A stretch of DNA of 43,835 nt from Verrucomicrobiia bacterium (lineage in GTDB: Bacteria; Omnitrophota; Omnitrophia; Omnitrophales; Aquincolibacteriaceae), in the NCBI GenBank assembly GCA_035495615.1, contig DATJFP010000034.1:1-43835 (forward strand), written 5' to 3'. Both the position numbers and the translations under genes were made by a program. This document shows, one piece after another, positions 1,456-21,040 of this stretch. Position 1 is the first letter of the stretch. Each line of letters opens with the position of its first letter. Under the pieces are notes generated by a model. The model made no database searches. It saw nothing but the letters and a program-made list of their open reading frames with translations, and had not been told where the DNA came from.

Positions 1456-4400
1456 TTACGCGGCGCTCTTGATCGCTTCGCGCGCTTCGGCCCAGTTGAC
1501 GAGAGCCCGGGCCACGCTGCCAAGCGAAACGCTGGCGCCGTCGCCGGTCAGTTGGATCATGCCGCCGCCCTCGTAGGTCATGAGCAGGCGCATGTTGCCG
1601 AGAAGCTCGGCCTGGAGAAGTTTGCGGTTGGCTTCGGGCTCCTTGAGATCGCGGATGTTGGCCGCGGCCACGATGCCCAGCACGATCTGCAGGAGCGCCG
1701 CGTAGGTGCGGACGCGCGGGTCGTTGACTTCCTGATCCGCGACGAGCTCGACGCCGAAAAATCCCTGCCCCAGATTTTCTTCGAGCTTGCCCGCGGCAAC
1801 CGCCGGAAGCACCACCTGCCCGTCGCCCAGCACTTTGACGCCGCGCAGCGTACGCACGGGATTGAGCCGAGCCGGCCCCACGATCTGCCCGATCTCTTTC
1901 CCCTGCCTTCCCATGTCGCCTTTGACGACCAGCCGCTCGATCATGGCCCGAACCTGCTTCAGCGGGTCGGCGTAATTGGCCGCTTCGCTTTCCGAGTCCA
2001 CTTCGAGCGCGAGCGTAAAGGCGCGGTTCGGGAATTTCGTCCGGAGATAAGTACCGAGCACTTCGTCCACGAGATAATGCAGCGCGTCTTCGAAATTCGC
2101 GTCGCTGACAAGCTCTTTCGCCTGCGCGGCTTCGCGCGCGGACCGTTTGAGGCTGTCGAGGAATTGTTCGAGCGTGATGGCGTTCTCGTTCAGCACCTGG
2201 CGCGTGGACCGCGTGGCTTCTTCGACTTCCTGTCCCGTGGCCGCGGCGCCTCTGTCCAGAACGCGGACGACAAGCTGCGTGGCTTTTCTCGCCTCGTCGG
2301 TGAGCCCGGAAGGGTTGCCTTGGCGCAATTCCGCCCGCGGCGTCACACGCACGTCGGTCCGGGCCTGCATTTTCCCGGCGATTTCTTCGCGCGGCATGTT
2401 TTGCTTCGCGAGCGCCAGGGCATCGGCAAAAATCCGGTCCGCGGCCGCGGCGTCGGTAGTGTCGAGGTCCATGATGATCCACGGCGCCGCCGCATTGTCC
2501 TTCACCGTAAGATTCATCTCAAACGTTTCCAGCCCCGGCCGTTTCTGCACGATGACAAAAATGCCGTTGGCTTCTTCGATCCGCACCTGGTAAAGGCCCG
2601 TACGCAATTCGGCTTTGCGCTCCGCTTCGGCGCGCTGGAACGCCTCGAGCGCCGCGAGCAATTCCTCCTGCGTGAAGACCGTGCCTTCGGTCGTCAGCAC
2701 AAGACGATCGCGCAGGGCCTCTTTCCAGAAAATCTTGTCGCGGTTGTCGGCTTTCGGCTCCGGGCTTAGCCCGCGTTCCCGGCGGGTCTGGGTCTCGCGC
2801 TCATTCAAATAAGCCGCCAGGCCCCGCACCGTGACGCCGGCCTGGTCGCTGACGGCGAGGACAGCCTTCGAGCCTTGAACGCCTTCGAGCGGCTGATAGT
2901 CGCGGTTCGGCTGCCCGTTCAGCTGCTGCGTGTTGTCTTTGTAGATCACGCCGCCCAGTGTTCCCATCGTGTACAGATAATCGAAGAAGATGCTTTCCGG
3001 ATTGCGGGAGGCCACCATGTCCAGGTCCTTCAGGTCTTCCCCTTCCACTTCGCTGACCAACCGAACGTTCAGCTTCACGGAACGGTCCGGCGCCATTTCG
3101 CGCGCAAAGTCGTCCAGGTCTTTGCGGACTTTTTCTTTTGCGCTTCTGAAGAGCGCCTGCAATTCGGCGGGGACGTCGTTTTCCAGGATCTCGCCTTTCC
3201 TGACGTCGAAGTCGTAGCCGGTGTCCAGCATGTGATTCAAAAGGCCGTTCAGGAAATTACTGACAAGTTCGACGCGCCGCACATCCTTGATTTCGCCCAG
3301 GCGTCCGAAAAAGGCGCCGCGCCGCGCCGCGAAATCCGGCGCGAAGACCTGCCCGAAACTCTGAAGCCCGAATTCCTTCAACGCCGCGGCCGTGGCTTCG
3401 TCGTCGGCGATTTTATTCAACGCGAAGACAAGAATGCCGAGAGTGTTTTGCAGCTGCGGGATGCTTTTGATGTCGAGCTGGCCGCTGTCCCAGGAATTGA
3501 CGTAGTTGACGTAATCCACGAACCCTTTCAACTGTTCCGGCAAAAAGCCGAAGCGCCGGACGAAGTTGACGAGCACGACGGACGCAATGGCGTCGAAGTC
3601 GGGATCGGCATGGGTCATGATTTTCAGGATTTTTCCGGAAGACGCGAGCTTCTGGCGGTTGTCGAAAACCAGGCGCGTCGCGCTCAGGCCCCGGTATTGG
3701 TGATGGTCGAGGATGCCTTTGGCCAGACCCGCGGAAGCAGCCACGACGCTGTTGACGCGGCCGATGTCGGTCACGATGGTTCCCTCTTCGATCGCGTCCA
3801 GAGAAAGGACGCGGTCTTTGGTAAAGCCCAGCTTGACGTCTTTGAGATCGAGGCTGAAATCCAGAGCGCGCAGCTCATTGCGGCCCTGCGCCGCCCGTTG
3901 GGCTTCGCGCTGCGCGCCGGTAAACCAGGCGCGCCATTTTTCTTCGAGGGTCTTGGAACCGTAATTTTTCCCTCCCGTGATTTCGAGCATGAGCTTGAGG
4001 TAATACGTGTCGTCGATCTCGGGCGCGGCTTGTTTTCCCGCGGCCTCCAGCGCGCGCTGCTGCGCCCTTCTCGTCAGCTCATGGATTTCGCCCATCCAAA
4101 TAAAGGAAGGCTCCGTGCGTCCCCAGGCCGTACCGAGAACGTACGGGCTTTGTTCTTTGAGGAAGTCGGGAACCAGCTCGCGGGCGCGCTCAGAATCCGC
4201 GCCCTTCAGGCTGAGTTCCGCGCGCACGGCCGAAGTTCTTTCGTCCCCTTCAATCCACTCGCGCCAGGCTTCCTGAATCTCGGGCACGCTCTTGAGGTTT
4301 CCAGCCAAAAAATCCCGGATGATGCGGTTTCCTGCCTCTTTGTCGGCTCCGAACTTCTGATAGTCAATGCCTCCCACGAAGTAAACCAGCCTGTTCGCAA

Positions 4401-7400
4401 GGTAATTCAGGCGTTCAGGATCCTTGGCGAAGGCTTTTTTCAGCGCTTCAAAGTCCGCCTCGTCCACGGGCCCTTTAAAGATTTTGCTTTCGAAAATTTC
4501 CCATGCCTGGGTTCCGGCCTGAAATTGCTGGCGAGCCTCAGCGATTTTATTTTCGCGCACCTGATTCACCGCGACGCCTGCGAGCACGGCCGACAACAAC
4601 AGCAGGAGGGGCCAATTATTGCGAAGGCCGCGGACGAAATCACCGAAGAATCCGCGCAGCTCGGCGCGCTGATTGTCGTTCAGAGCCCCCGCCTGCTGCA
4701 GCACCGGGAGAAGAGCGTCCCAGTCCGGAAGCGCGGGGCGCGAGCCCATCTCCATCAGAGTTTCCGCGAGAGACGCCACAGCGGGATCCGCCGCGAGCAG
4801 CGAGCCGGTTTCTTCGAAGCTGCGAAGTTCCGGATGATACAGCTGGCGCGCGTACGCCACGGTCCTGTCGTAGACTTGTTCGACGTCCAATTTTTGGCGG
4901 GCAAGCGCCACGGCGTTTTCGAAAACCCGGCGCGCGATGTCCCCATCCGGCGCGATCTCGACGATCTCGGCGCCCGGCCGTCTGACTTGCGGGAAATGAA
5001 TCGTGTAAAGCTGATTGGCGCCGTCCCAGGCGACGTTGATCCGGACGCCATTAACCTCCGCATGGTCATGATAACCCAGATGCCGGACCTGCACGTCCGC
5101 GAAAGCGTCGGTCTGCCGGCGGACCTGATCGAGCTTCAGGCCCTGCGCGGCCAACTCCACGGCCCTTGCAAAGACGCTGCGGGCATCGTCCACGTCATCG
5201 GACAAAATCAAAGGAGCCGGGGCCTTCCCGTCGGAGCGGAATTGCGGGAATTCGACGGCATAAGCCGCGGCCGCATCGTCCCAGTACACTTCGATGCGGA
5301 TCCCCTTTTCGACAACCTCCGAATAGATCCTGTCCGCACGCGCCAGCCGCCCGGACTGCTTTTCCGCTTCGACATGCAGCGCGTAAGCATCCAGTCCCAG
5401 CTGCGCGAGCATTTTCGTCCGTTCCATCACCTTGAGCGCGGTTTGCCTGTTCGCGGGAATCGAAATCGACGGGGAAGCTATGCCCCGGTCGTTCGGGACC
5501 TGGATTTGGGGAAAAGTGAGCTTGATCGAATTGGCCGCATTATCCCAGGCCGCGGTAATGTCCACGCCGTTCACGCGGGCTTTATCCGAATACCGGGACG
5601 CGTCTTCGGCCAGGATTTGGCGCGTATCGTCGGCGGTTTTTTTATAGAGATCGTAGACGTCAGACGTGCCCGCCGCATGCGCCTTGGCCTTTTCGAACAC
5701 GCTCAAGGCCAGCTTTTCATCGGGTGAAATCCTGATGTAGCTGGAATTCACGCGCTCGAAGTCCACCAGCATTTCCGGGAATTCCACGATGTATTCGTTC
5801 AGGTCCGAATGCCAAAGCAGCTCGATGGCGATTTTGTTGACGACGGTCCTTTCGTACCGCTTCCCCTGGGCGCGCAATTCCGATTTCCCCGCCGCCGCCG
5901 TTTCAAGGGGAGCTCCCGGCAGGCGCCTGAAAGCAAAACCCGCAGCATCGAGAAGAACACGGCGCGTCGAGCCTAGACCGGGCGCGTCTTCATCCAGCGC
6001 GCCGGCCATCACGGCTTCGGTCATGGTCCCGGGCCGTAAAAGCTGGCGGATGTTCTGGTCCGTGAGTTGATTCTGCGCCTGGAGCTGTTTGAGGCCTTCC
6101 ACAAAATTTTCCACTTTGCCGACAAGCTTTTTCTCATAGGCATCTGCCGCAGAGCCGCCCGTTTTTTCGTCGATGAAACGCGTGTAGCGCCCCGCTTCGG
6201 CCACCTGTTTTTCGCTCGAAAGGTCGCGGATGATCTGGTCGCGCCATTCCTTAAGCATGCTTCCCTGGTCCGGACTTTTGAGGAGCAGCCGGTCACGCGC
6301 CGCGCGGACAAAAGCCTTGTAAACGTCGACCTTCCCTTCCTCCACGCGGAAATAATCTTTCCAGGAAACCAGGCCCCGCATGTGGTCTTTGTAACGGACC
6401 TCGCGGGGAAGTCCCGTGATTTCCGGCGCAAGAAGCAGGTACGAAACACCCCGCTCCTTCAGCCGCTCGACAAGGCCTTCGGTATGAAAGCCTCCGGCCA
6501 CGAACAGGACGGCCGCAGGCCCGTTGCCCTGTGAGTCGAGCATCTTTTGAAGCCGCTCGGCAAACACACCGTCGCGGGCTTCCGCATTCTTATAAAAGGC
6601 GACCTGCGCGTCCATCATTCCCGCGGGCGCCAAGCGGTCGAGGCCCCTGATTTTCAGCTCTTCCCACTGATGGCGCGTCAACTCGAGACTGCCGAGTTTT
6701 TTCAGCAGCTCCAGCTCGCGCTCTTCGCGGTCGAGCTGCTTCACGTCTTCTCCGGCCATCAAGGTCTCTTTGACCGCGGCCGCGTAATTTTCGAAAGCGT
6801 CGAAAAAACGAGTCCCTTCGATGTCACGCATCCGCTTCTGCTGCCGGGTGAGGCGCAGGAGGTCTTCGGAAATCTGAAGTTTCAGATCCATCTTGGAATT
6901 GAGGTCCCGGATAAAAAGCATGAATTCCTGCGGGCTGAGCTGAGAGACTTTGAGCGCCTGGAATTTTTCGTTGAAGGCCGCCTGCAGTTTGAGCTCTTCC
7001 GAAGAAGGACGGGACAGGGCCGCGAAGCGCGCCGTCACGGTCTCCCCGATTTTTTTGGCCTCGATCTCCGCGGGCACGCGGTTTTCCGGACGGCGCTCGC
7101 CTTCTTCGAGGATCAGCGCAAGCTCGCTTCCGGCTTCCGGCTTTTTGATCTTGGCCAGCAGCCGCAGCGCGGTCAGCAGGTCTGTATCGCCCTTGCGGAA
7201 ACTTCTCAGGCCGCGGTCGATTTCGAGGAGCGGCGCCGGATAAATTTTTTCCTGGCGCGCTCTGAGGTCTTCGTCACGGCGCGAAAGATTCTGCTCGACG
7301 GCCGCGGAGCGCGAAAGCGCGTCGAGGAAATCCGCATAGCCGGTTTCGTACAGCGCCCAGTCTTCGATCCCTTCGTAGGCGGCGGGATGCTCATTGAAGA

Positions 7401-7839
7401 TGGCGGCCATGGTCGGGCCGGTCAGCTCCCCCTGGTCGAGGTATTCCTTGAAAGTCTTTTTGAGAATTTCCGCATTCGGAAAACTTTTGAAGATTTGCGG
7501 GTTCAGCCGGGATGCGGCGCCTTCCAAAGCCACGTGTGACAGGCCGTAGGTCTGCTGGAAAAAATCGATCAGGTTGCGGATGTTCCGCTGCGCGTCGGGA
7601 ATACCGTGCGCGTCCTGGATCAGCACCACGACCCTCCGGCCGCTTTGATGGGTTTCTTCTTTCTTTCCGATGTTGGAGGGAATTCGAATTTCGTTCAGGT
7701 CGGACGGCAGCCACAGCTGAGCCGGGGCCGCCGGCGTTTCCGCGGCGGCAACCACGACGGGAATGCCGTTCGGGCTGGTGATAAAGGAAGCCAAGGCCAA
7801 GGCCGCGATCAGGCGATTCATCCTTGTTTTTTTGTGCAT
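1456..7839 (-). CDS. Giant secreted multidomain protein A (TraB/ChaN/Tiki-like N-module, tandem repeats, DHH-like centre)
   Basis: 2127 residues. A signal peptide is seen (basic MHKKTRMNR, hydrophobic core, likely cut after AAA near residue 33), so the protein should leave the cytosol. Residues 50-605 match giant protein B closely; in residues 76-150, 63 of 75 positions are identical. This module has QDAH (H78), ALEG (E106) and AGGFH (H452), resembling the paired GxxH motifs of the TraB/ChaN/Tiki superfamily. Residues 667-1000 hold four ~87-residue repeats centred on W676, W765, W853 and W938, with a worn fifth copy at about 1749-1825. One membrane segment lies near 1076-1091. Residues 1326-1600 contain VTDIG (1356), ILDHHQ (1376) and THADPDFDAIAS (1409), DHH-phosphoesterase-like motifs in unusual order. 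Residues 1850-2127 form the C-module shared with protein B. ELR motifs mark the boundaries. GAGG lies 8 bases before the ATG. The function is unknown and the enzymatic roles are inference. Confidence 0.85.
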   Translation of the reverse strand: MHKKTRMNRLIAALALASFITSPNGIPVVVAAAETPAAPAQLWLPSDLNEIRIPSNIGKKEETHQSGRRVVVLIQDAHGIPDAQRNIRNLIDFFQQTYGLSHVALEGAASRLNPQIFKSFPNAEILKKTFKEYLDQGELTGPTMAAIFNEHPAAYEGIEDWALYETGYADFLDALSRSAAVEQNLSRRDEDLRARQEKIYPAPLLEIDRGLRSFRKGDTDLLTALRLLAKIKKPEAGSELALILEEGERRPENRVPAEIEAKKIGETVTARFAALSRPSSEELKLQAAFNEKFQALKVSQLSPQEFMLFIRDLNSKMDLKLQISEDLLRLTRQQKRMRDIEGTRFFDAFENYAAAVKETLMAGEDVKQLDREERELELLKKLGSLELTRHQWEELKIRGLDRLAPAGMMDAQVAFYKNAEARDGVFAERLQKMLDSQGNGPAAVLFVAGGFHTEGLVERLKERGVSYLLLAPEITGLPREVRYKDHMRGLVSWKDYFRVEEGKVDVYKAFVRAARDRLLLKSPDQGSMLKEWRDQIIRDLSSEKQVAEAGRYTRFIDEKTGGSAADAYEKKLVGKVENFVEGLKQLQAQNQLTDQNIRQLLRPGTMTEAVMAGALDEDAPGLGSTRRVLLDAAGFAFRRLPGAPLETAAAGKSELRAQGKRYERTVVNKIAIELLWHSDLNEYIVEFPEMLVDFERVNSSYIRISPDEKLALSVFEKAKAHAAGTSDVYDLYKKTADDTRQILAEDASRYSDKARVNGVDITAAWDNAANSIKLTFPQIQVPNDRGIASPSISIPANRQTALKVMERTKMLAQLGLDAYALHVEAEKQSGRLARADRIYSEVVEKGIRIEVYWDDAAAAYAVEFPQFRSDGKAPAPLILSDDVDDARSVFARAVELAAQGLKLDQVRRQTDAFADVQVRHLGYHDHAEVNGVRINVAWDGANQLYTIHFPQVRRPGAEIVEIAPDGDIARRVFENAVALARQKLDVEQVYDRTVAYARQLYHPELRSFEETGSLLAADPAVASLAETLMEMGSRPALPDWDALLPVLQQAGALNDNQRAELRGFFGDFVRGLRNNWPLLLLLSAVLAGVAVNQVRENKIAEARQQFQAGTQAWEIFESKIFKGPVDEADFEALKKAFAKDPERLNYLANRLVYFVGGIDYQKFGADKEAGNRIIRDFLAGNLKSVPEIQEAWREWIEGDERTSAVRAELSLKGADSERARELVPDFLKEQSPYVLGTAWGRTEPSFIWMGEIHELTRRAQQRALEAAGKQAAPEIDDTYYLKLMLEITGGKNYGSKTLEEKWRAWFTGAQREAQRAAQGRNELRALDFSLDLKDVKLGFTKDRVLSLDAIEEGTIVTDIGRVNSVVAASAGLAKGILDHHQYRGLSATRLVFDNRQKLASSGKILKIMTHADPDFDAIASVVLVNFVRRFGFLPEQLKGFVDYVNYVNSWDSGQLDIKSIPQLQNTLGILVFALNKIADDEATAAALKEFGLQSFGQVFAPDFAARRGAFFGRLGEIKDVRRVELVSNFLNGLLNHMLDTGYDFDVRKGEILENDVPAELQALFRSAKEKVRKDLDDFAREMAPDRSVKLNVRLVSEVEGEDLKDLDMVASRNPESIFFDYLYTMGTLGGVIYKDNTQQLNGQPNRDYQPLEGVQGSKAVLAVSDQAGVTVRGLAAYLNERETQTRRERGLSPEPKADNRDKIFWKEALRDRLVLTTEGTVFTQEELLAALEAFQRAEAERKAELRTGLYQVRIEEANGIFVIVQKRPGLETFEMNLTVKDNAAAPWIIMDLDTTDAAAADRIFADALALAKQNMPREEIAGKMQARTDVRVTPRAELRQGNPSGLTDEARKATQLVVRVLDRGAAATGQEVEEATRSTRQVLNENAITLEQFLDSLKRSAREAAQAKELVSDANFEDALHYLVDEVLGTYLRTKFPNRAFTLALEVDSESEAANYADPLKQVRAMIERLVVKGDMGRQGKEIGQIVGPARLNPVRTLRGVKVLGDGQVVLPAVAAGKLEENLGQGFFGVELVADQEVNDPRVRTYAALLQIVLGIVAAANIRDLKEPEANRKLLQAELLGNMRLLMTYEGGGMIQLTGDGASVSLGSVARALVNWAEAREAIKSAA
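4840..5841 (-). repeat. Four tandem ~87-residue protein repeats inside giant protein A
   Basis: Residues 667-1000 of the encoded protein show a recurring pattern: a short strand such as NGVRINVAWD, then Y-x-[IV]-x-F-P-[QE], a variable charged or proline segment, and a helix of the type A-x-x-V-F-x-x-A-x-x-L-A. The anchoring Trp residues are at 676, 765, 853 and 938 (spacings 89, 88 and 85), and the FP pairs start at 687, 776, 864 and 949. A degenerate fifth unit lies near residues 1749-1825, after the DHH-like region. The copies are diverged, so this is an old domain duplication rather than a recent DNA expansion. I do not recognise the fold. Confidence 0.75.
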
Positions 7840-7909
7840 TACGAAAGCCTCGATCGTGAAGCGCCGTGACGGGCGCCTGGATGCGTTTCTCCCCCTTGGA
7901 CTTATTAAA

Positions 7910-7938
7910 AGACTAGCATAAGATAGCAGGGATTACAA
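7910..7938 (-). promoter_or_regulatory. Candidate promoter for giant gene A
   Basis: Reading the minus strand, TTGTAA (933-938 of the 7 kb block, i.e. 7933-7938) is followed after 17 bases by TAGTCT (7910-7915), with TG one base before the -10. It lies in the 147-base gap between the two giant genes, about 70 bases before the ATG of gene A. The hexamers are imperfect, so the call is tentative. Confidence 0.35.
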
Positions 7939-7986
7939 AAAACATAGCCTCGGAGAGACGATTGTAAGTAGCGGTTCCCTTTGACG

Positions 7987-10900
7987 TTATGCGGCGGATT
8001 GGACGAGTTCGCGCGCTTCCCAGTTGATCAGCAAAGCCGACAGGCGTTTCATGGAAATGCCGGCGCCGTTGACCGTGGGCTGGATCATCTGCCCATCGCC
8101 GTACTGAACAAACACGCCCATGTTCTGAAGGAGGGACGCTTTCAGAAGCTCGCCTTTCATCTTGAGGGCGTTTTGATCTTTCAAATTGGCCGCGGCCATG
8201 ATGCCGAGTACCAGTTGCAGCAATGCGGCATAGGTGCGGATGCGGGGATCCGTAATGTCGGTGCCGTCGTCGAAAATGAGCTCGACGCCGTAAATCCCTT
8301 CGTTGAGCGATTCCTGGAATTGTCCCGGCGTGACGGCCGGCAGCACGATCTGCCCGCCGTTCAAGACCTGGATGCCACGGAAACTTTTCACCGGGCTGAG
8401 GCGGGAAGCGCCGAGCGCATCGCGAAGCGCCTTGCCCTGGCCTCCCACGTCGCCTTTCACGATGAGGCGTGAGATGAAATCCTTCAAACGCTGGACCGGC
8501 TCCAGATAATCGGCAGCCTCGCTTTCGGAGTGGACGTCGAGCGCCAGCGTAAAGGCCTGGTTCGGGAAATTCGTTTTCAAATAATTTCCCAGCACTTCGT
8601 CGAGCAGGTAATTCAAAGCGGCTTCGTAATTCGCGTTGGGGATGATGCCCTGCTTGGCAAGCGCCATGGCCTTCAATTCCGCGATGAACCGGTCAAGACT
8701 CATTTCGTTCCCCGTGACGATCTGGCTTGTGCCGTGCGCCGCGCGCGCCACTTCTTCGCTGCCGGCGCCGGGTTCTTCCATGACATGTACGACAAGCTGC
8801 GTGACGCGGCGTATCTCCGCCTGATCCGCCTGTTGCTGCGGAGGCGCTTCATTCACGCGTTCGGCCGGCGTCCGGGCTTCTTCGGGGGATTGTCTCAATT
8901 CCGATTTGGTTTCCGCTTTCTCCAGCGCGGCAAGGCGGGTATTTTCGGCCGTGACCGTGGCTAGACGCGCCTTCGTATCAGCAAGTACGCGCACGCCCTC
9001 CGATTCGAAGTCCGCGACGAACTTGCGGTAGGCGGTGGCTGCGGCCGTGAAAAGGTCGTGAGCCGCCTTGAGATCCGCGGCCGCGGCGATACCGTCGGTC
9101 GCGGTCTTAACCTGGTCGAGGCGCACATCCAATTCGGCGAGGGCTTTGTCGTACTCCTGTTTCGCGCGGTCTTTTTCCGCCGTCTTTGCCGTCTGCCGCT
9201 CCTGGGCCGTATTCACGGCGGTTTCATAATCGGAAGTGTCTTTTGCCGTGGCGCCGCTGTCTTTAAAAGCGAGATAGGCTTCGCGCAGCAGTTTCATCTG
9301 CGGAGGACTAGGCACCATGTTTTTTTGCAGCGCTCCCTGCACGGCCGCAAGCGCATTGCGGAATTTTGAGCTGACCGCCGCGTTCGGCGGCAAGGGATTG
9401 ATCTTGGGCGCGGGTCTTGCCGGCAAGGCAGAAGACGGCGGCGTGGCCGGAGCGGCCGGCGGCACGGCCACCGCGGGCGCCTTCACCGTTTCGTCCGGAG
9501 TCCCCACGGTCGCGGCCGGAGGAAGCGCGTCGTTTCTTTCCGGCTGTTCCACGGGAAGCACTTTGAAGGAAACAAACTGTTTGTCCCCGTCCACGCGGAT
9601 CGTGAGCGTGAATTTGTGAATGCCCGACGGCGCTTCCGCGGAGAAATCAATCTGGGTCTTTTGCGGGTCGATTTTTGTGATCCTGGCGGTCAGTTCCCTG
9701 CTTTTCGTGAAACCCGCTTCCCGGAAAGCCTTGGGGATATTGATATTGTCGGTCCGCATGTCCATCGCGCGCTGCAAACGGCTCAGGAATTCTCCGAAGC
9801 CGCGGGATTTGAATCCGCCTTTGAAATCCCCGGCATCGAATTTGAACTCCTTGGCCGCGAAGGGATCCGCCGTCGCGGCAGCCGCGGCTCTCTTTCCCTT
9901 TTGCTGGTCCAGATTTTCGAGGAAGGAACCGCCGTTGGCAACAAAGACAATAGCGAGATAAAACGCAATTCCCAAAGAGATCCGCGCGCCCAAAAGCCCC
10001 ATGGCGGGGAACAGCGCGGGCACTGCCAGCCCCGCGACCACGGTGACGGCCGTGAAGGCCATGCCTACGGCAAAAGCTCCCCATGGGCCGAAACGTTTAT
10101 TCGCGCGGCTGAAAAGCCCCAGTGCAGGATTACTCAAAGGAAGCCAGGCCAGTTTTTTTTGAAAAGGCGTGCGGGTGTCCGGCTCTACCTTGGCCGGCGC
10201 GGGCTTTGCCTTGGCGGGTTCAGGAAGATCCGACACTACCGCATCCGGCTTGGACGGTTTTCTCAAGTTTGCGGGATGAAAATTTTCTTCGGCGATGTAG
10301 GCAATGCTGCTGAAGATAAAAAGCGCGCCGGCATAAAGGCCGACAGCAAAGGCAATGACGCCCCATACAGGTCCCAGCATCGCAGCGCCCACGAAAGTGG
10401 CGACCCCGGTCAGGATGCCCGTGATCATGCCCGCGATGCCGGCGCCCGGCTCGCCCCACCGCTCGGTCAGCCAATCCAGAAGATCTTCAATTTGAAATCC
10501 TCCCGGCAAGGCTCTCACGAGTCTCTGGAGCCAGGCCGTGGCGAGGCCTTCCTTGCGTTTTTCCGCTTCTTCTTTTTGAGCCGCTTCCGCACGCAGCTGG
10601 GCCTTGGTCTTTCCGCTCTTAGGCTGCGAGCGCATTTCCGCTTTCATTTCCTGAAGGGTGCTGAGAACGCCCAGCATGATCTGTTCCACATTTGTGCTGC
10701 CGGTCAGGTTGGGATCGCGGGCCAGTTTTCTCCGGTTTTCCAAAAACACGAGTTCCTGGTCGATTTCACGCTTGGCAAGCTGGAGAAATTGATCGCGGAC
10801 GAACTGCTTTGCTGCATCACTCAGGTCGAGCCCTTGAAATTGCTTCGCCGGATCGCCCAGGATTTGCCCGCTCAATTCGAGAAGGCCCTGATAAATCAAC

Positions 10901-13900
10901 CTGCTGTTCTCGAGAAAATCTCCCGTCTCCGCGACCCCGTCCACGCGGATAGGCACCTTTCTCGCGATGAGATCGCGTACGAGGTCAGACAGAAGGTCCG
11001 CGATGAAACCGCCGATCTCGGCGTCGGCGTTCTGCGGCGCGGCCGCAGGAGGCGTCACACGCGGCGTATGCTCGAAATACCATTTCAAATCCGCGAGGAT
11101 CGCGGCCTGAAAATCAAACAGCTTGTTCTTTTGAGACGGTTCGACGAGGTCTTCCAGGGGCATGCGCTTGAGGTCCTCCAACTCAGTCCCGCGGATAGCC
11201 GGGTTCGGTCGGATCTCCCCGATTCCGCCGTCGGTCAAATGAGCTCTCAAGATACTGGAGACGCGGTCGGCCACGGCTTCTTTGATATCCGCCCACTGGG
11301 CCGCCGGCCCCGCGCGGAGCGCCAAAGCCTCGATTCCCTTTTCACGGTTGCTGATGAAGTCCTGTTTAAAGGAGCTCGCCCAGCCAGCCCAAAGCCCTGC
11401 CACTGCCGTGGCGGTATTGCCGAAAATTTCCTTGGCCTGGATTTCTTCCAGCTCCCGTTTTTTCTTGTCCGCGTATTGCTCGGGCAGGGTGACGATGACC
11501 CTGCGGATATCCTGAAAAAAATCGCCTTCGCCCGCTTCAAAAGCCGCCGGATGGGACCAGTTCAGGTTTAGCACCATACCCAAAAGAGTCGTGAGCTGCT
11601 CCTCCATAAACTCGCCGAAACCTTCCAGATCCAATCCTTCCGTCTGCAGGAAGGTGGCGATTTTGTTAAACGTGGCCGCGTGGGTTCCCATCTGGTTTTC
11701 CAGGAATGCGAAAATCTTCGGCCCATCCAGCCGCTTCTCGGTAGGATCGACTCCCATCTGCCGGAAAATGCGGTAGATGAATTGCGCCGTGTTCCCGGAC
11801 CGCTCGGCGACCAGATTGTTGATGAATGCGGCGCCGTCCGTCACCTTCGTCTCGTCATCCGTAAGACTTCCCAGATTGTTGCGGACATATTTGATCAAAT
11901 ACGTGGCGAGCTTGGTCAAAATGACTTTCCTCACGTCCTCCGCCCGGATCTCAGCGCGAACAGCTTCGGGCTGGCCCTCCATGCGGATCGCGGCTTCAGG
12001 CGGCGCATAGACCTGCCCCGCACGGTTGAAGTCCTCGGTCTTTTCCGCGACGCTCAGGCCGGAAGGCGTCTGCGTGACTTTATAATTCGTGCCGAGGAAC
12101 GTGAACTCCGCGAGGCCCTGCGCGGTGAGGTCCGCGATTGTGGCCGGACGCAGGAGCCGCATGATGTTTTGCTCGTTGAGCTGGTTATGGGATTCCAGGT
12201 CCTGCAGCCCCTGGACGAATTTCTCGACTTTCTGCAGGAGCTGGTTCTCGACGGGCGCGCCTCCGGATTTTTCGTCGATGAATTTCGTGTAATTTCCGAC
12301 CTCGATGATGCGCTTCTCGTCCGCCAGGTCACGGATGATCTGGTCGCGCCAGTCTTTGAGCATACGCCCCTGGTCCTGGCTCTTGGCGAGCATCTTGTCT
12401 CGGGTCGCGCGGACAAACGCCTTGTAGACGTCAACCTTGCCCTGCTCCACTTCGAAATAATCCTTCCACGAAACCAGGCCTTTCATGTGGTCCTTGTAGA
12501 GGATTTCGTCCGGCAGCCCGTTGATATCCGGAACGAGCAGCACGTAGGAGATATTCCTCTCCTTCAGCCTCTCGACCAGCCCTTCGGTATGGAAACCGCC
12601 CGCGACAAAAAGCACGGAAGGATTCGCTTCCCCTGTTTTTTTCAGCAATTCGCCCAGACGGTCCGCGAACACCCCGTCGCGCGCTTCGGCGTTCTGATAA
12701 AAGGCGATGTGGGATTTCAGGATGGCGGGATCGGCCCGCTTGCCGGCGCGCAGCGTCTTGAATTCTTCCCACTGATGGCGGGTCAGCTCCATGCTTCCCA
12801 GCTTTTTCAAGAGCTCCAGCCGGTGGGATTCGGAATCCAGTTCCCTTTCCTCGTCACTGCGGAAAAGCTTTTCTTTCACGGAGTCGGCATAAGCTTCGAA
12901 CGCCTCGAAAAAGCGGGTGCCCTCAATGTCCTTGATGCGTTTCTGCTTGCGCATCATGCGCTGCATGCCGCCCGAAACCTGGAGCTTCAGGTCCATGCCG
13001 GCCGTGATCTCCTTGACGAAGAGCATGAATTCCTGCGGGCTGATTTCCGAGACCTTCAGCGCCTGGAACTTTTCGTTGAACGACGCGAGCAGCTCGCGGT
13101 CGCCGGCGGACGGATTGGGTTTGGACAGAAGGTAATCGCGGATCTGCTGACCGATTTTTTTCGCTTCGATGTCAACCGGCACCTGGCTTTCCGGATCCTT
13201 CAGGCTTTCTTCATAAACCAGCGCCAGTTCGCTGCCTTCGGGCGGAGCCTTTATGGCCGCGAGCACGCGGATGACTTCCAGAAGATCCATGCCGTTTTTC
13301 CGGAAATTCTTGAGCGCGCGCGCGACCCCCAGCAGCTTTTCCGAATAAACTTTTTCCTGCCGAGACTCGAGTTCTTTTTCCTGCGCCTCCATCGTCTTCC
13401 GGATGTTTTCCGCTTTCGACATGGCCGCCAGGAAATGGCCGTAGCCTTCTTCGTAAAGCTTCCAGTCTTCGATGCCCTGGTAAACGCCGGGCTGCTCGTT
13501 GAAAATCGCGGCCATGGAAGTGCCGGTGAGCTCGCCTCGTTCGAGATATTCTTTGAAGGTCTTTTTCAGGATTTCACGGTCGGGAAAGCTCTTGAAGATC
13601 TGCGCGTTGAGACGCGAGGCCGCGCCCTCCAGCGCCACCTGCCGCACGCCGTAGGTCTGCTGGAAAAAATCGATAAGGTTGCGGATACTTCGCTGCGCCT
13701 GCGGAATACCGTGCGCGTCCTGCACCAGAATGACCACGCCCTTGGAATCGGGTGCCTGCCGGATTTCTTCTTCCTTTCCGATGTTCACGGGAATCTGAAT
13801 TTCGGAAAGAGTGGCGGGCAGGCTGGACACGGAAGCGGGAGGCAGAGGTTCGGCGGACGCGATGCGGACAAAAGAAGTTTCGGACAGACTAAAGGCGATG

Positions 13901-13947
13901 AGGACAAAGCCGGCCGTCAGCTGTCGGGTTAACTTGAACCTTGTCAT
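7987..13947 (-). CDS. Giant secreted multidomain protein B (paralogue of A with a different, membrane-spanning centre)
   Basis: 1986 residues. It has a signal peptide with likely cleavage after ASA near residue 32. Residues 50-603 are the same N-module as protein A, with QDAH (H79), ALEG (E107) and AGGFH (H453). The centre is unlike A. Residues 670-1100 are mostly helical and charged. Residues 1168-1220 and 1286-1340 contain about four hydrophobic membrane segments rich in Gly and Ala. A small mixed domain lies at about 1366-1465, a Pro/Ala-rich linker at 1473-1520, and a probable coiled coil at 1575-1680. Residues 1712-1986 are the C-module shared with A. The boundary motifs are RAEIR (664), KAEMR (1102) and KSELR (1681). 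The gene lies 194 bases after purF and 147 before gene A. The paralogy and architecture are directly visible; the function is unknown, and the N-module's hydrolase-like nature is inferred only from its histidine motifs. Confidence 0.85.
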   Translation of the reverse strand: MTRFKLTRQLTAGFVLIAFSLSETSFVRIASAEPLPPASVSSLPATLSEIQIPVNIGKEEEIRQAPDSKGVVILVQDAHGIPQAQRSIRNLIDFFQQTYGVRQVALEGAASRLNAQIFKSFPDREILKKTFKEYLERGELTGTSMAAIFNEQPGVYQGIEDWKLYEEGYGHFLAAMSKAENIRKTMEAQEKELESRQEKVYSEKLLGVARALKNFRKNGMDLLEVIRVLAAIKAPPEGSELALVYEESLKDPESQVPVDIEAKKIGQQIRDYLLSKPNPSAGDRELLASFNEKFQALKVSEISPQEFMLFVKEITAGMDLKLQVSGGMQRMMRKQKRIKDIEGTRFFEAFEAYADSVKEKLFRSDEERELDSESHRLELLKKLGSMELTRHQWEEFKTLRAGKRADPAILKSHIAFYQNAEARDGVFADRLGELLKKTGEANPSVLFVAGGFHTEGLVERLKERNISYVLLVPDINGLPDEILYKDHMKGLVSWKDYFEVEQGKVDVYKAFVRATRDKMLAKSQDQGRMLKDWRDQIIRDLADEKRIIEVGNYTKFIDEKSGGAPVENQLLQKVEKFVQGLQDLESHNQLNEQNIMRLLRPATIADLTAQGLAEFTFLGTNYKVTQTPSGLSVAEKTEDFNRAGQVYAPPEAAIRMEGQPEAVRAEIRAEDVRKVILTKLATYLIKYVRNNLGSLTDDETKVTDGAAFINNLVAERSGNTAQFIYRIFRQMGVDPTEKRLDGPKIFAFLENQMGTHAATFNKIATFLQTEGLDLEGFGEFMEEQLTTLLGMVLNLNWSHPAAFEAGEGDFFQDIRRVIVTLPEQYADKKKRELEEIQAKEIFGNTATAVAGLWAGWASSFKQDFISNREKGIEALALRAGPAAQWADIKEAVADRVSSILRAHLTDGGIGEIRPNPAIRGTELEDLKRMPLEDLVEPSQKNKLFDFQAAILADLKWYFEHTPRVTPPAAAPQNADAEIGGFIADLLSDLVRDLIARKVPIRVDGVAETGDFLENSRLIYQGLLELSGQILGDPAKQFQGLDLSDAAKQFVRDQFLQLAKREIDQELVFLENRRKLARDPNLTGSTNVEQIMLGVLSTLQEMKAEMRSQPKSGKTKAQLRAEAAQKEEAEKRKEGLATAWLQRLVRALPGGFQIEDLLDWLTERWGEPGAGIAGMITGILTGVATFVGAAMLGPVWGVIAFAVGLYAGALFIFSSIAYIAEENFHPANLRKPSKPDAVVSDLPEPAKAKPAPAKVEPDTRTPFQKKLAWLPLSNPALGLFSRANKRFGPWGAFAVGMAFTAVTVVAGLAVPALFPAMGLLGARISLGIAFYLAIVFVANGGSFLENLDQQKGKRAAAAATADPFAAKEFKFDAGDFKGGFKSRGFGEFLSRLQRAMDMRTDNINIPKAFREAGFTKSRELTARITKIDPQKTQIDFSAEAPSGIHKFTLTIRVDGDKQFVSFKVLPVEQPERNDALPPAATVGTPDETVKAPAVAVPPAAPATPPSSALPARPAPKINPLPPNAAVSSKFRNALAAVQGALQKNMVPSPPQMKLLREAYLAFKDSGATAKDTSDYETAVNTAQERQTAKTAEKDRAKQEYDKALAELDVRLDQVKTATDGIAAAADLKAAHDLFTAAATAYRKFVADFESEGVRVLADTKARLATVTAENTRLAALEKAETKSELRQSPEEARTPAERVNEAPPQQQADQAEIRRVTQLVVHVMEEPGAGSEEVARAAHGTSQIVTGNEMSLDRFIAELKAMALAKQGIIPNANYEAALNYLLDEVLGNYLKTNFPNQAFTLALDVHSESEAADYLEPVQRLKDFISRLIVKGDVGGQGKALRDALGASRLSPVKSFRGIQVLNGGQIVLPAVTPGQFQESLNEGIYGVELIFDDGTDITDPRIRTYAALLQLVLGIMAAANLKDQNALKMKGELLKASLLQNMGVFVQYGDGQMIQPTVNGAGISMKRLSALLINWEARELVQSAA

Positions 13948-14141: not shown

Positions 14142-15551
14142 TTAACTGCGCTTTTTTTCGAGCTTGAGCTTGTCGATCTCGTCAGAAACCGGCGTGGGAT
14201 AATGCCCCGTAAAGCAGGCAGCGCAATAGAGGCTCTTCTCATGGCTGGCCGCACTGAGCATGCCGTCAAGGCTGAGGTAGCCGATGCTCTCCACGTCGAG
14301 AAATTTTTTGATCTCCTCCATGGAGTTGTTGCAGGCCAGCAATTCTTGCTTGGACGGGAAATCGATGCCGTAATAACACGGCGAAATATGCGGCGGGCAG
14401 CTGATCCGCATATGGACTTCTTTTGCTCCGGCGCGCCTCAAAAGCTTGACGCGCGAGCGTGCCGTGTTGCCGCGGACAATGGAGTCGTCGACCACGATCA
14501 CGCGCTTGCCGTGGATCATCTCCCGGATCGGGTTCAGCTTGATCTTGATCTTGGTGGCCCGCATGGATTGCGTAGGATTGATAAACGTCCTTCCGATGTA
14601 GTGATTGCGGGTGAAGCCGTGCGCCAGCGGGATGCCCGACTCCTGGGCATAACCCAGGGCTGCGAAGTTCCCCGAATCCGGAACGGGCACGACAATGTCC
14701 GCCTGCACCGGATGCTCCTTGGCAAGGTTCCTTCCCATTTTTTCACGCACCTGCGCCACGTTATCCCCAAAAACAAGCGAGTCCGGTCTCGCGAAATACA
14801 CGTGTTCGAAAATGCAATGGGCCTTCTTTTTTCCCTGGTCTTCAAACGGGAAGAAGCTGCGCGGGCCTTTGTCGTCGATGATCAGGACTTCCCCGGGCTG
14901 GACGTCGCGAATGTAATCCGCATCGATGAGATCGAACGCGCAGGTCTCGGAAGCCACGACGTATCCTCCGCCGAGTTTGCCGAAGCACAACGGACGGAAG
15001 CCGTGTGGGTCCCGGACCGCGAAGAGCTGGTTTTCTTTGAGCATCACGACACTGAAGGCGCCTTCCACCCTTTTGACGGATTCGATGACAGCCTCTTCCG
15101 GAGAACGGTATGAAGGCTTGGCCATCAGGTGGATAAAGAGTTCCGAATCCGTGGTGCTGCCGAAAATCGAACCGTAAGCCTCGAGTTCCGCGCGGAGAAT
15201 CTGGGCATTCGTGAGATTGCCGTTATGGCCGATGGCCACCTGGCCACGGGAGTAATCCACGCGGTAAGGCTGGGCATTGATCAGGCTGGACGATCCTGTT
15301 GTGGAATAGCGTGTATGCCCGATGGCATGCTGGCCCGGCAGCGAGGCGAGGACTTTTTCGTTGAACACGTCGCCGACAAGCCCCATGCCCTTGTGCAGGT
15401 GCAGGTTTTCCCCGTCACTCGAGCAGATACCGGCCGATTCTTCGCCGCGGTGCTGGAGCGCGAACAGGCCGAGATACGTGATGTAGGCCGCGTTGGGAAG
15501 ATTGAAGGCCCCGAACACGCCGCAATGGTCTTTGATGTTTTCGCCGCTCAT
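14142..15551 (-). CDS. purF: Amidophosphoribosyltransferase, iron-sulfur (B. subtilis) type
   Basis: PurF makes phosphoribosylamine from PRPP and glutamine, the committed step of purine synthesis. It has 469 residues. The nine-residue propeptide MSGENIKDH precedes the nucleophile C10 of the glutamine amidotransferase domain, so self-processing is expected. The amidotransferase continues through RYSTTG (81) and GHNGNL (108). The PRPP-binding stretch VIVVDDSIVRGNT is at 351-363. C246, C392, C443 and C446 match the four ligands of the 4Fe-4S cluster in the B. subtilis-type enzyme, whose cluster is oxygen-sensitive. The start codon overlaps the purL stop (TAATG), fixing the start and indicating translational coupling. 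It is the last of the tightly packed pur genes before the two giant genes. Confidence 0.97.
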   Translation of the reverse strand: MSGENIKDHCGVFGAFNLPNAAYITYLGLFALQHRGEESAGICSSDGENLHLHKGMGLVGDVFNEKVLASLPGQHAIGHTRYSTTGSSSLINAQPYRVDYSRGQVAIGHNGNLTNAQILRAELEAYGSIFGSTTDSELFIHLMAKPSYRSPEEAVIESVKRVEGAFSVVMLKENQLFAVRDPHGFRPLCFGKLGGGYVVASETCAFDLIDADYIRDVQPGEVLIIDDKGPRSFFPFEDQGKKKAHCIFEHVYFARPDSLVFGDNVAQVREKMGRNLAKEHPVQADIVVPVPDSGNFAALGYAQESGIPLAHGFTRNHYIGRTFINPTQSMRATKIKIKLNPIREMIHGKRVIVVDDSIVRGNTARSRVKLLRRAGAKEVHMRISCPPHISPCYYGIDFPSKQELLACNNSMEEIKKFLDVESIGYLSLDGMLSAASHEKSLYCAACFTGHYPTPVSDEIDKLKLEKKRS

Positions 15552-17806
15552 TACTGCTCCATCTTTTTGGGAATGGCCGAATCGTAAATTTCGCGCAGGT
15601 CCGCTATTTTAGCACGAATCGCGTCGCCGACGTGAAGTTCCTTGCCGCCTGTCCGCCCGATCTGGTAAAGCGGCACGGAAAACGACTTGGCCTTGCGCAG
15701 GATTTCCTCTTTGTGTTCGGGCTTCACGGTGATCAGCACGCGGCTCTGGCTTTCGCCGAAGAGCAGCGAGTCTTTGCGCAGCGATTTCTTGTCCGCGGCC
15801 CTCGGCGTGACCAGATCTAGCTGGTCCACCACGGCGCCTATCCCCTCTTCTTTACCGAAGCAGCTCTCGGCAAGCGCAACGGCCAAACCGCCCTCAGCGA
15901 GATCGTGGCAGGATTTCAGAAGGCAGGAATCCCCCATGGCCAGGATAAAATTCTGCAGCGCTTTTTCCTTCGCGAGGTCGAGCCGCGGCGGCAGTCCTTT
16001 TTTCAGCCCATGCTCGATCATAAGGTAATGCGAGCCGCCGATTTCATCGTACGTGTCGCCGGCCAGGAAAAGAATGTCACCTTCGTTTTGAAAATGCGAA
16101 GGCACGCGCTTCGAGAGATCGTCCAGGATACCGACCATGCCCACCGTAGGCGTGGGATAAATCGCGGCCTTCGGGCTTTCGTTATAGAAGCTCACGTTGC
16201 CGCCCGTCACCGGCGTGTTCAGCGCCTTGCAGGACGCGATCATGCCGTTCACGGACTGATGAAATTGCCAGAAGACGTCGGGCTTCATGGGATTGCCGAA
16301 GTTCAGGCAGTTGGTAATCGCAACAGGCCGCGCGCCGGAACAAACCACGTTGCGGGCGGATTCGGCCACGGCGATCTTGCCGCCTTCGAAAGGATCGAGA
16401 TAGCAATACAGGCTGTTGCAGTCGGTCGAAACCGCGATGCCGCGTTTCGTGCCCTTCACCCGGATGAGCGCCGCGTCATGGCCGGGATAGAAAACCGTGT
16501 CCGTCCGCACCATGTGGTCGTACTGGCGCCACACCCAGCCCTTCGAGGCAATCGTGGGATGGCCAAGAAGCTTCTTGAGCACGGCCGTGCAATCCTGGGG
16601 CTCTTTCACCGAGGACGGATCAAACTTCCGCGTTTCTTCCAAATAAGCGGGCACGGCTTCTTCGCGCACATAGATGGGGCCTTCTTCGGCCAGAGCACGC
16701 GCGGGAATCACCGCCACTTTTTCCGGACCATCATACACGGTCATGAGGGTCCCTGCTTTGATCTCGCCGATCTTCACGGCATGCAGATCCCACTTGTTGA
16801 AAATGTCTTCGATTTTCTTTTCCTTGCCCTTCTGCGCGATGATGAGCATGCGCTCCTGGGATTCGGAAAGCATGATTTCGTACGGCACCATGCCGGTCTC
16901 ACGGCGCGGCACTTTCTGCAAATCGATCTCGATGCCGATGTCGCCTCTGGACGCGGTTTCGCAGGTCGAGCAGGTGAGACCGGCCGCGCCCATATCCTGC
17001 ATGGCGACCAGCGCGTCGGTCTTGATCAGCTCGAGGCAGGCTTCCATCAAAAGTTTTTCCATGAACGGATCACCCACCTGCACCGCGGGCCGGTCTTCGT
17101 GGCTTTCTTCACTGAGTTCCTTCGAGGCAAACGCCGCGCCGCCCAGACCGTCGCGTCCCGTGGCCGCGCCGACGTAGTAAACCGGATTGCCCACGCCGCT
17201 TGCTTTCGCGCGCACGATCTCGTCTTTTTTCATGATGCCGAGCGCCATGGCATTGACGAGAGGATTGCCTTCGTAACATTCGTCGAAATAAACTTCGCCG
17301 CCGATCGTCGGCACGCCGATGCAGTTGCCGTAATGCGCGATGCCCGCGACCACGCCGCGGAAAAGCCTCTTGGTCACGGGCTTTTCCAGGCTGCCGAAGC
17401 GGAGCGAGTTCATCAGGAGAATCGGCCGCGCGCCCATGGTGAAGATATCGCGCAGAATGCCGCCCACGCCCGTGGCCGCGCCCTGGAAAGGCTCGATGGC
17501 TGATGGATGGTTGTGGCTTTCGATCTTGAAGCAGACGGCCAGGCCGTCGCCGATGTCCACGATACCGGCGTTCTCTTCACCCGCCTTCACGAGCAGGTCC
17601 GGGCCTTCGGTCGGAAAGGTCTTGAGGATGGGCTTGGAATTTTTATAAGAGCAATGCTCGCTCCACATCACGCTGAAAATCCCGAGTTCCGTGAAATTGG
17701 GCTCGCGCCCCAGAATCTTCACGATCTTTTCGTATTCGGGCTGCGTGATGCCGTGCGCGGCGATCATTTCCGGCGTGATTTTTTCAGGAGTTTTCGTCAT
17801 GGTCAT
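15551..17806 (-). CDS. purL: Phosphoribosylformylglycinamidine synthase, large subunit
   Basis: PurL carries the ATP-dependent synthetase activity that turns FGAR into FGAM, using ammonia delivered by PurQ and held together by PurS. The 751 residues match the small-PurL type that needs separate PurQ and PurS, both encoded just upstream. Motifs seen: [14 protein letters not shown] near residue 42, [23 protein letters not shown] near 90-112, and [12 protein letters not shown] near 250. The ATG at 17806 overlaps the purQ stop as ATGA, which supports this start over a much longer frame reaching 18172 whose extra residues are low-complexity arginine-rich read-through. A second ATG two codons later is equally possible. 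Confidence 0.97.
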
Positions 17807-18510
17807 GTCCGCGATCCCATCGTGACGTCCAGGATGCTCTCCCAGATCTTGCGGCCGTGATCGCAGCCCAGCACGTCTTCGCTCGCGCGCTCGGGATGCG
17901 GCATCATGCCCAATACGTTTCGCTTTTCGTTGAGGATGCCGGCGATATTGCTCTTGGCCCCGTTCGGATTGAAAGCCGCGGAAACGTCGCCGTCTTTGGA
18001 GCTGTAGCGGAACGCGACACGCGACTCGTCCTGCAGGCGCTTCAGCGTGTCGTCGCTGCAATAATAATTGCCTTCGCCGTGCGCGATCGGAAGCGAGATC
18101 GTCTCGCCTTTCTTGAAATGCCGCGTGAAAATGCTGTTCGTGTCTTCCACGCGCAGCCACACGTGCTTGCAAATAAAGGAAAGGGAGAGATTGCGCAGCA
18201 TGGCGCCGGGAAGAAGTCCCGCTTCGAGAAGAATTTGAAAACCGTTACAGATGCCGATGACGGGCTTGCCTTGGTCCGCGTGCTTTTTCACGGCTTCCAT
18301 CACCCGCGAAAAACGCGCGACCGCGCCGGTGCGCAGGTAATCGCCGTAGCTGAAGCCGCCCGGAAGCACGATGAGCTCGGCCTCTCCGAGCGCCGCGTCC
18401 TTGTGCCACACGAATTCGACCTTCATGCCCATCACGTCCTTCAGGACGTTGTAGCAGTCGGTATCGCAATTCGAGCCGGGAAAAACAACGACGGCCGCCT
18501 TCATCGTCAT
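17803..18510 (-). CDS. purQ: Phosphoribosylformylglycinamidine synthase, glutaminase subunit
   Basis: A class I glutamine amidotransferase that supplies ammonia to PurL. It has 235 residues from the ATG at 18510. It begins [16 protein letters not shown], the usual PurQ N-terminus (VxxFPGSNCD). [13 protein letters not shown] and GICNGFQIL contain the oxyanion region and the nucleophile cysteine (GICNG). HPERASED near the C-terminus supplies the catalytic His-x-Glu. The start overlaps the purS stop as ATGA, and the stop overlaps the purL start in the same way, so purS-purQ-purL are translationally coupled. The insert between the nucleophile and the C-terminus is normal for PurQ. Confidence 0.97.
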
Positions 18511-19717: not shown

Positions 19718-21040
19718 TCACTTGCCTGACTTGGCACGGGAGCCGTTGATGCCCACACGCGCGAAAATCTTGTCCACGTTTTTGAGATGGTACTTCGTAT
19801 CGAAAACCGCTTCGACTTCGTCGCGGCCCAGATGCTTCAGGATGTCGCGGTCTTTCAGGACCACATCGCGCATGGTGGCATCGTCCTGCTCCCATACTTT
19901 CTTCGCGGCATTCTGCACGAGCGCGTAGCCTTCCTCGCGCGTCAGCCCTTTTTCCACGAGCTTCAACAAAAGTCCCTGGGAATAAACAATGCCGCGGCTC
20001 TTCTCGAGGTTCTTGATCATGTTGTCTTTGAAAACCACCAGGTCTTTGATCACGCCCTGCATGAGCACGATCATGTAATGAAGCAGGATCGTGCTGTCCG
20101 GGAATATCACGCGCTCGACGGACGAATGCGTGATGTCGCGCTCATGCCAGAGCGCCACATTTTCCAGCCCTGCGACCGCATTGCCTCGCAGGATGCGGGA
20201 AAGACCGGCCACGCGCTCGCAGGTGATCGGGTTGCGCTTGTGCGGCATGGCGGATGAACCCTTCTGGCCTTCCTTAAATGACTCCTGGACTTCGAGGGTT
20301 TCGGTTTTCTGGAGGCCGCGGATTTCCGTGGCCAATTTTTCGAGCGACGCGCCGATGACCGCGACTGTGCAAAGGTACTCCGCGTGGCGGTCGCGCTGGA
20401 CCACCTGCGTGGAAATCGGATCGGGCTTTAAGTCCAGTGCGCGGCAGACATCGTCTTCGACAGCCGGATCCACGTTCGCGAACGTGCCCACGGCGCCGGA
20501 AATCTTGCCGTAGCCGATCGTGTCCATGGCCTGCTCGAAGCGCTTGATGTTGCGCTTGGATTCTTCATAAAAGAGCGCCATCTTCAGGCCGAACGTCGTA
20601 GGCTCGGCATGCACGCCATGGCTGCGGCCGACCATCACGGTAGTGCGGTGTTCCATGGCTTTCTTCTTTAAAATTTCCGAAAGCGTCTTCAGCTCTTTCA
20701 GGATCAGCTGTGACGCTTCCATGATCTGCAGCGCCAGCGCAGTGTCGAGGATGTCCGAAGAGGTCAATCCGAAATGGACGTAGCGTCCCGCGGGCCCGAC
20801 GTTCTCGGCCAGGTTCGTAAGGAATGCGATGACGTCGTGATTGACGATTTTTTCGATTTCGCGGATGCGCTCGAGATCGAAACGCGCTTTCTTGCGCACC
20901 TTGGCGGGAATGTCTTTGGGAATGTAGTCGTGCTTGGCCAACGCATCCAGCGCCGCGAGTTCGACGTCGAGCCATTTGGCCACTTTGTTCTGTTCGGTCC
21001 AGATCTTGCCCATTTCGGGCATCGTGTAACGAGAAATCAT
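19718..21040 (-). CDS. purB: Adenylosuccinate lyase
   Basis: PurB removes fumarate from SAICAR (purine pathway) and from adenylosuccinate (AMP synthesis). It has 440 residues. HFGLTSSDILDTALALQ near 90, GRSHGVHAEPTTFG near 140 and the fumarase-superfamily signature GSSAMPHKRNP near 262 give a firm assignment. It begins MISRYTMPEMGKIW, a usual start. It is the first protein gene after the tRNA-Glu; the 27-base spacer holds a 5-bp hairpin (GACGC/GCGTC, 21051-21063) immediately 3' of the tRNA and a weak GGGA ribosome site. This places purB in the same transcript as the tRNA under the promoter at 21217-21245. Confidence 0.97.
   Translation of the reverse strand: MISRYTMPEMGKIWTEQNKVAKWLDVELAALDALAKHDYIPKDIPAKVRKKARFDLERIREIEKIVNHDVIAFLTNLAENVGPAGRYVHFGLTSSDILDTALALQIMEASQLILKELKTLSEILKKKAMEHRTTVMVGRSHGVHAEPTTFGLKMALFYEESKRNIKRFEQAMDTIGYGKISGAVGTFANVDPAVEDDVCRALDLKPDPISTQVVQRDRHAEYLCTVAVIGASLEKLATEIRGLQKTETLEVQESFKEGQKGSSAMPHKRNPITCERVAGLSRILRGNAVAGLENVALWHERDITHSSVERVIFPDSTILLHYMIVLMQGVIKDLVVFKDNMIKNLEKSRGIVYSQGLLLKLVEKGLTREEGYALVQNAAKKVWEQDDATMRDVVLKDRDILKHLGRDEVEAVFDTKYHLKNVDKIFARVGINGSRAKSGK

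Follow-up and report, generated by a model that had tools for sequence, protein, structure and literature searches.

The 43,835-nucleotide stretch of DNA analyzed here, which we call the window (contig DATJFP010000034.1 of assembly GCA_035495615.1, from a bacterium of the phylum Omnitrophota), carries two adjacent, intact giant genes on its minus strand, A (1986 codons, positions 7987-13947) and B (2127 codons, positions 1456-7839). On balance, A and B appear to belong to a family of exported polyproteins that spans the lineage and whose chains are cut at short delimiter motifs. Each chain would begin with a Sec-type signal peptide, continue with a hydrolase module of the TIKI superfamily (the N-module) and then carry a string of independent units, most of them enzymes. 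A protease, either the N-module or another one, would recognize the delimiter between units, written [KRH][SAP]E[LM]R in this genome and mostly with A, T or S as the next residue, and release the units as separate proteins. Whole delimiter-to-delimiter blocks would be exchanged between chains and between genomes, and it is this exchange that would produce giants with the same ends and swapped centers.

A common front module before many different centers

An earlier note, made from the letters of the sequence, had reported the lengths of A and B and described shared N- and C-modules around unrelated centers, a picture that the open reading frames (ORFs) and BLASTP alignment bear out. Residues 9-685 of A align with 9-675 of B (700 bits, E 0) and residues 1675-1986 of A with 1815-2127 of B (263 bits, E 4e-74), while nothing significant was found between the centers by BLASTP, where the best match reached 23 bits (E 0.44). 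The N-module covers about 570 residues at 61% identity and the C-module about 275 residues at 49% identity. Conservation of the N-module stops near residue 605, the first delimiter after that point lies at A 664 and B 652, and the C-module starts directly behind a delimiter at A 1709 and B 1835.

The 75-residue block described in the note is identical at 63 positions, as stated, and pairs A 76-150 with B 75-149 rather than with B 77-151. Its likeness had been ascribed to constraint or to recent exchange. Identity at fourfold-degenerate sites of the N-module is 0.35, versus 0.36 expected for unrelated sites. As synonymous sites are saturated, the likeness is, judged from these alignments, old and due to purifying selection; constraint holds, and recent exchange, including recent gene conversion between A and B, is ruled out.

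Searching the genome of origin with the N-module (3.16 Mb in 106 contigs; G000 in our sample) yielded 40 matching stretches in 28 ORFs, which together encode 118,503 residues and take up 355 kb (11.2% of the genome); several of these frames run off contig ends. The N-module is present in all 39 sampled genomes of the same order and in 140 of 285 genomes sampled across the phylum. Within the genome and across the phylum it precedes many different centers, in support of the modular cargo or polyprotein system that the note had proposed. Among 67 named loci in public species genomes, 66 are titled Omnitrophota or Omnitrophica and one Elusimicrobia. This last locus (L238) lies in the Elusimicrobia bin RA.bin80, from a sample series that also produced a giant-bearing Omnitrophota bin, and reflects either gene transfer or misbinning.

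The longest frame in the genome of origin, at C88:18416-90307 on the minus strand (L032-L036), is a single open frame of 23,964 residues that follows an N-module; delimiters are sparse in it, and its first 10,000 residues have almost no Pfam matches. An apparent "PGK giant" of 24,209 residues in genome G028 was rejected as an artefact of masked Ns beside an ordinary gene.

Separate searches with the two modules, which the note had suggested, supported conserved ends for the front of the chain and not for the back. Among the 28 giants of the genome of origin the C-module occurs in A, B and a third giant, C11, and weak matches were found in two other genomes, G038 (two giants with N-modules) and G020 (a 457-residue frame). 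The two modules are therefore found together outside the pair, in C11 and, with a weak C-module match, in G038. Except for the 457-residue frame, every copy of the C-module closes a protein that has an N-module, and the copies in A, B and C11 begin immediately after a delimiter. Given its rarity and this start, the C-module is, by sequence comparison, a rare exchangeable unit that usually comes last rather than a general terminal module. Its predicted structure (predicted local distance difference test score, pLDDT, 69.5) gave no usable structural match.

A delimiter between units, spelled by lineage

More telling than the shared ends is the internal delimiter, which the note had not described. 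It occurs 164 times in the 118,503 residues of the giants, compared with none in 29,666 residues of neighboring genes, four in 74,034 residues from other genes (a contig-edge fragment, possibly itself a giant, accounts for two) and 13 in 592,403 residues of shadow frames. In the form RxExR, with any residue at x, 174 copies were seen in these giants versus 22 expected. Chance was rejected as a source of the motif, as E-to-D, R-to-K and reversed-motif controls stayed at chance in the same genome and shadow frames were at or near chance. Codons are mixed at every delimiter position, with serine written as both TCN and AGY, which places the selection on the protein. An in-frame DNA repeat or a DNA-uptake word was likewise rejected, since the codons are too diverse and the motif is almost absent from other genes.

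The same codon diversity bears on the proposal that the motif is a scar, or a preferred site, of domain shuffling at a standard linker and has no function in the protein. Units are indeed shared and shuffled among the giants and tandem copies of about 20 residues occur at some sites, both of which this proposal would explain. However, it is largely refuted by the lack of any conserved DNA word, and the residues of the motif stay fixed as its flanks drift, with little information there besides P or G before it and A, T or S after it. In addition, its spelling varies by lineage beside one homologous unit, as described below. We regard a shuffling scar as very improbable.

The delimiter is a short conserved motif that keeps to the linkers joining folded units, as would be expected of a polyprotein. 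No delimiter falls within 28 Pfam domains (4,182 residues), where 7.3 were expected, and gaps of 57-172 residues between delimiters were seen twice, versus 19.2 ± 3.7 under random placement. There are 39 pairs at most 56 residues apart, 12 of them at exactly 20 residues, and the other gaps correspond to the distance of a domain. In the two main classes, a delimiter follows within 150 residues of the N-module in 88 of 124 cases, compared with 27% of control windows. Units shared between giants start within 40 residues of a delimiter in 48% of cases, versus 12% by shift; the corresponding result for unit ends was not significant. In five giants of the genome of origin (C10, C14, C49, C63 and C85), tandem repeats of about 20 residues are bounded by delimiters, for example ASSEESLLSAELKEARSELR.

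An inter-domain position would also be expected if the giants stayed whole and each domain had one such motif as a linker or docking site for a partner that differs between lineages, for example a chaperone or a scaffold at the surface; the chain would then be an enzyme-carrying coat or adhesin. This is the main rival to a cut polyprotein, and one to which we give a modest chance. It agrees with the published interpretation of the Omnitrophota giants, which sees them as coat, adhesin or predation proteins (PMC10066038), and a linker motif can change in step with a protein that binds it just as with a protease that cuts it. Yet the cargo consists of soluble, cofactor-dependent enzymes instead of adhesion repeats, and doubled sites about 20 residues apart, as well as single domains exactly between two motifs, such as the GNAT domain at residues 702-883 of giant C51, fit excision better.

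When the genomes were searched without bias for enriched words with gaps, R.E.R came back in most of those belonging to the order. The preferred residue before the last R is L in the genome of origin, G014, G010 and G028, V or A in G038, G030 and G025, and T or M in G005; spellings in other families include RSEVR and RAEAR. In four genomes [GA]xSLG is found instead (30 copies in G027, 27 in G029, 19 in G036 and 4 in G033, versus 0.7, 0.7, 0.7 and 0.2 expected) and RxExR is at chance. In G024 the word AGFGA is enriched (AGFG 13 times versus 0.45 expected) and stands directly behind the N-module in two giants. The decisive comparison is that of a homologous APH phosphotransferase unit of 330 residues, present in nine giants of nine genomes, the genome of origin included. 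It has the delimiter of its own lineage on one or both sides in all nine, with a clear delimiter on one side only in several of them. Its neighbors are KAELR and KSELR in the genome of origin, RSEVR, RAETR, RTEVR/RSEVR, RSELR, RSEMR and RSEVR/RAEAR elsewhere, and ASSLG on both sides in G029. From these comparisons, the spelling of the delimiter changes between lineages even beside one and the same homologous unit.

Export, the N-module and the cargo

A strongly hydrophobic N-terminal segment is present in 59 of 70 giants, compared with 5.8% of random windows, and the printed N-termini look like Sec-type signal peptides. In A the predicted signal peptide covers residues 1-32 (13852-13947), with cleavage placed by eye between RIASA and EPLPP, and in B residues 1-33 (7741-7839), between VVVAAA and ETPA. 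Display or anchoring, both raised in the note, received no specific support.

The N-modules of A (residues 41-607, positions 12127-13827) and B (residues 42-606, positions 6022-7716) belong to an alignment of 54 members with invariant H, E, G, R and G-G-x-H residues, in the segments IQDAH, EGA, RD and AGGFH. All 54 keep H39, E67, R383 and H413 in A-N numbering (H79, E107, R423 and H453 of A), and all 54 have the same spacing of 28 between the first His and the Glu. At position H-2, 49 of 54 have Asp, likewise an acidic residue, in place of Glu. These residues correspond to the 2His/2Glu-type active site with a conserved basic residue of TIKI and EreA-ChaN proteins. The TIKI-family, sequence-specific endopeptidase RRSP depends on E3900, H3902, E3930 and H4030, with R4001, and BcR135 has H85 and E113 (PMC6254334), so that both share the His-Glu spacing of 28 with the N-module; RRSP also shares the acidic residue at H-2 and a basic residue about 29 positions before the last His. 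An AlphaFold2 model of the N-module (pLDDT 93) places strands at 31-37, 63-66, 404-410 and 427-433, with key residues at the ends of the first three. Pfam matches, all below threshold, were to three families of this superfamily, ChaN (five members), TraB/GumN (two) and erythromycin esterase (two), with best E values of 0.01-0.09; profile searches of PDB sequences returned nothing relevant and NCBIfam nothing consistent. We take the N-module to be a divergent hydrolase of the TIKI (EreA-ChaN/TraB) superfamily. Like RRSP, BcR135 and ChaN, it has an invariant His, a Glu 28 residues later, a late Arg and a final His, which the model puts at strand ends; unlike known members, it has a helical insertion of about 280 residues and is fused to giant cargo. 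By analogy with RRSP, the N-module may itself cut peptides.

The units behind it are, by Pfam, unrelated to each other and mostly enzyme-like. They include kinases, GNAT acetyltransferases, methyltransferases, a pseudouridine synthase, ARMT1, an M48 peptidase, FHA and HEAT domains, a GH77 enzyme, a PEP-utilising enzyme, HPr and a dehydrogenase. Chains of dead domains were rejected as an explanation, as catalytic motifs inspected by eye are intact in APH (HGDYHQDN), kinase (HRDLKLDN), M48 (HELTH), pseudouridine synthase (GRLDYDVDG) and GNAT (RRQGHA) units. Giant C49 carries PGK, GAPDH, aldolase-like, GPI, GlpX (FBPase) and TIM units, the TIM unit lying just between KQELR and RAELR, and similar sets in a different order occur in G024 and G025. 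A second, divergent glycolytic or gluconeogenic set is thus found in shuffled order in giants of three families (L042/L043 in C49, L150-L152 and L160 in G025, L153-L155 in G024).

These sets are also what would be expected if the giants were cytosolic multi-enzyme polyproteins serving the metabolism of their own cell, with a membrane-anchored N-module holding metabolons whose units are released or not. This seems very improbable, as the N-termini resemble signal peptides and ordinary PGK and TIM genes are kept elsewhere in the genome of origin and in G024. In the cut-polyprotein reading the released enzymes would act in the cytosol of another cell, because the cargo needs ATP, acetyl-CoA and S-adenosylmethionine. 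Enzymes of these types use such cofactors by general biochemistry. Delivery to other cells would also agree with proposals that Omnitrophota live as predators or parasites.

Several observations count against cutting and delivery as proposed here. No cleavage product, proteome or protease has been observed, and Foldseek found no significant solved-structure match for the N-module model, with EreC, BcR135 and HopBA1 among the matches listed at E > 1. Genomes outside the order carry the N-module, but no clear delimiter was found in them; sampled genomes of other classes gave none, nor did G087, where KYPT and LLxAC patterns may be a domain repeat. Some long stretches, including most of the 23,964-residue chain, contain few delimiters, so not every domain boundary is marked. 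The giant TIM unit lacks the SERR glutamate and the PGK unit the usual first motif, so not all cargo need be active. Finally, a change of the motif word at over a hundred sites of one genome is hard to explain, whichever reading is preferred.

In A, the delimiters RAEIR (A 664, 11944-11958), KAEMR (A 1102, 10630-10644) and KSELR (A 1681, 8893-8907) bound a first cargo unit at residues 669-1101 (10645-11943) and a second at 1107-1680 (8908-10629), the latter with membrane-like hydrophobic stretches by eye; neither unit has a Pfam match. The delimiter-like QAEIR (A 1709, 8809-8823) precedes the C-module at residues 1714-1986 (7990-8808). In B, KSELR (B 652, 5872-5886) and HPELR (B 1002, 4822-4836) enclose a first cargo unit at residues 657-1001 (4837-5871), in which apparent repeats of about 100 residues, NGVxIxxxWDxAxxxYxxxFPQ, were seen by eye and gave no match by self-BLAST. 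RAELR (B 1058, 4654-4668) and RNELR (B 1320, 3868-3882) follow, then a unit at residues 1325-1741 (2617-3867) that is weakly like DHH phosphoesterases (PF01368, E 0.041, below cut-off; ILDHH and HADPDFDAIAS by eye). Its DHH motif stands ahead of HADPDFDAIAS, whereas DHH-like units usually have the two motifs the other way round. KAELR (B 1742, 2602-2616) is followed by RAELR (B 1835, 2323-2337), immediately ahead of the C-module at residues 1840-2127 (1459-2322). Neither center has a confident Pfam match.

Both genes lie inside a run of purine biosynthesis genes on one strand (window 317-21040), in the order purB-like (19718-21040), purL-like (15551-18172), purF-like (14142-15551), A, B and purM-like (317-1345).

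Known systems and what the giants may be

Giant ORFs are known from Omnitrophota, as the note had stated, an example being the 39,678-residue protein of Velamenicoccus archaeovorus, and have been described as having few annotated domains, poor conservation and a proposed extracellular location, with coat, adhesion or predation roles suggested (PMC10066038). The A/B family resembles them in phylum, giant size and proposed location; the common N-module, the delimiter and a polyprotein reading are not mentioned in the available portions of that report.

In working, the giants seem closest to the MARTX toxins, very long secreted chains with conserved ends and swappable central effectors that are released by cutting inter-domain regions (PMC6315884). 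Swappable units between conserved ends are found in the giants too, with the N-end general and the C-end limited to few members. Neither RTX repeats nor a cysteine protease domain turned up when A, B and further giants were scanned with Pfam, and since these defining parts are absent there, the giants are best read as analogous to MARTX toxins and not as members. They differ further in their Sec-type N-terminus, TIKI-like front module, glycolytic cargo, lengths of up to 24,000 residues and occurrence in tens per genome.

Viral polyproteins encode several mature enzymes in one ORF, with short cleavage sites in linkers and a specificity that differs between lineages. The giants share the single ORF with several enzymes and the lineage-varying linker sites, but they are cellular genes, exported and present as many paralogues per genome, and no known viral protease was found.

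Omnitrophota giants, which are among the largest known proteins, lack an agreed function. Should they prove to be polyproteins marked by delimiters, each would turn into a list of enzymes that can be excised in silico, folded and expressed singly, and the puzzle of their size would be gone. The lineage-specific delimiter would be a rare natural record of a recognition sequence changing at dozens to more than one hundred sites per genome, as well as a handle on the protease. Many exported, cofactor-dependent enzymes would also become effector candidates in a phylum that is uncultured and probably predatory. More tentatively, much of the exported proteome could be made as giant polyproteins with a genome-wide delimiter code, whose vocabulary (RxExR, GxSLG, AGFGA) and reader changed jointly from one family to the next. 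In this way whole sets of enzymes of cytosolic type, a second glycolytic set among them, could be delivered outside the cell or into prey.

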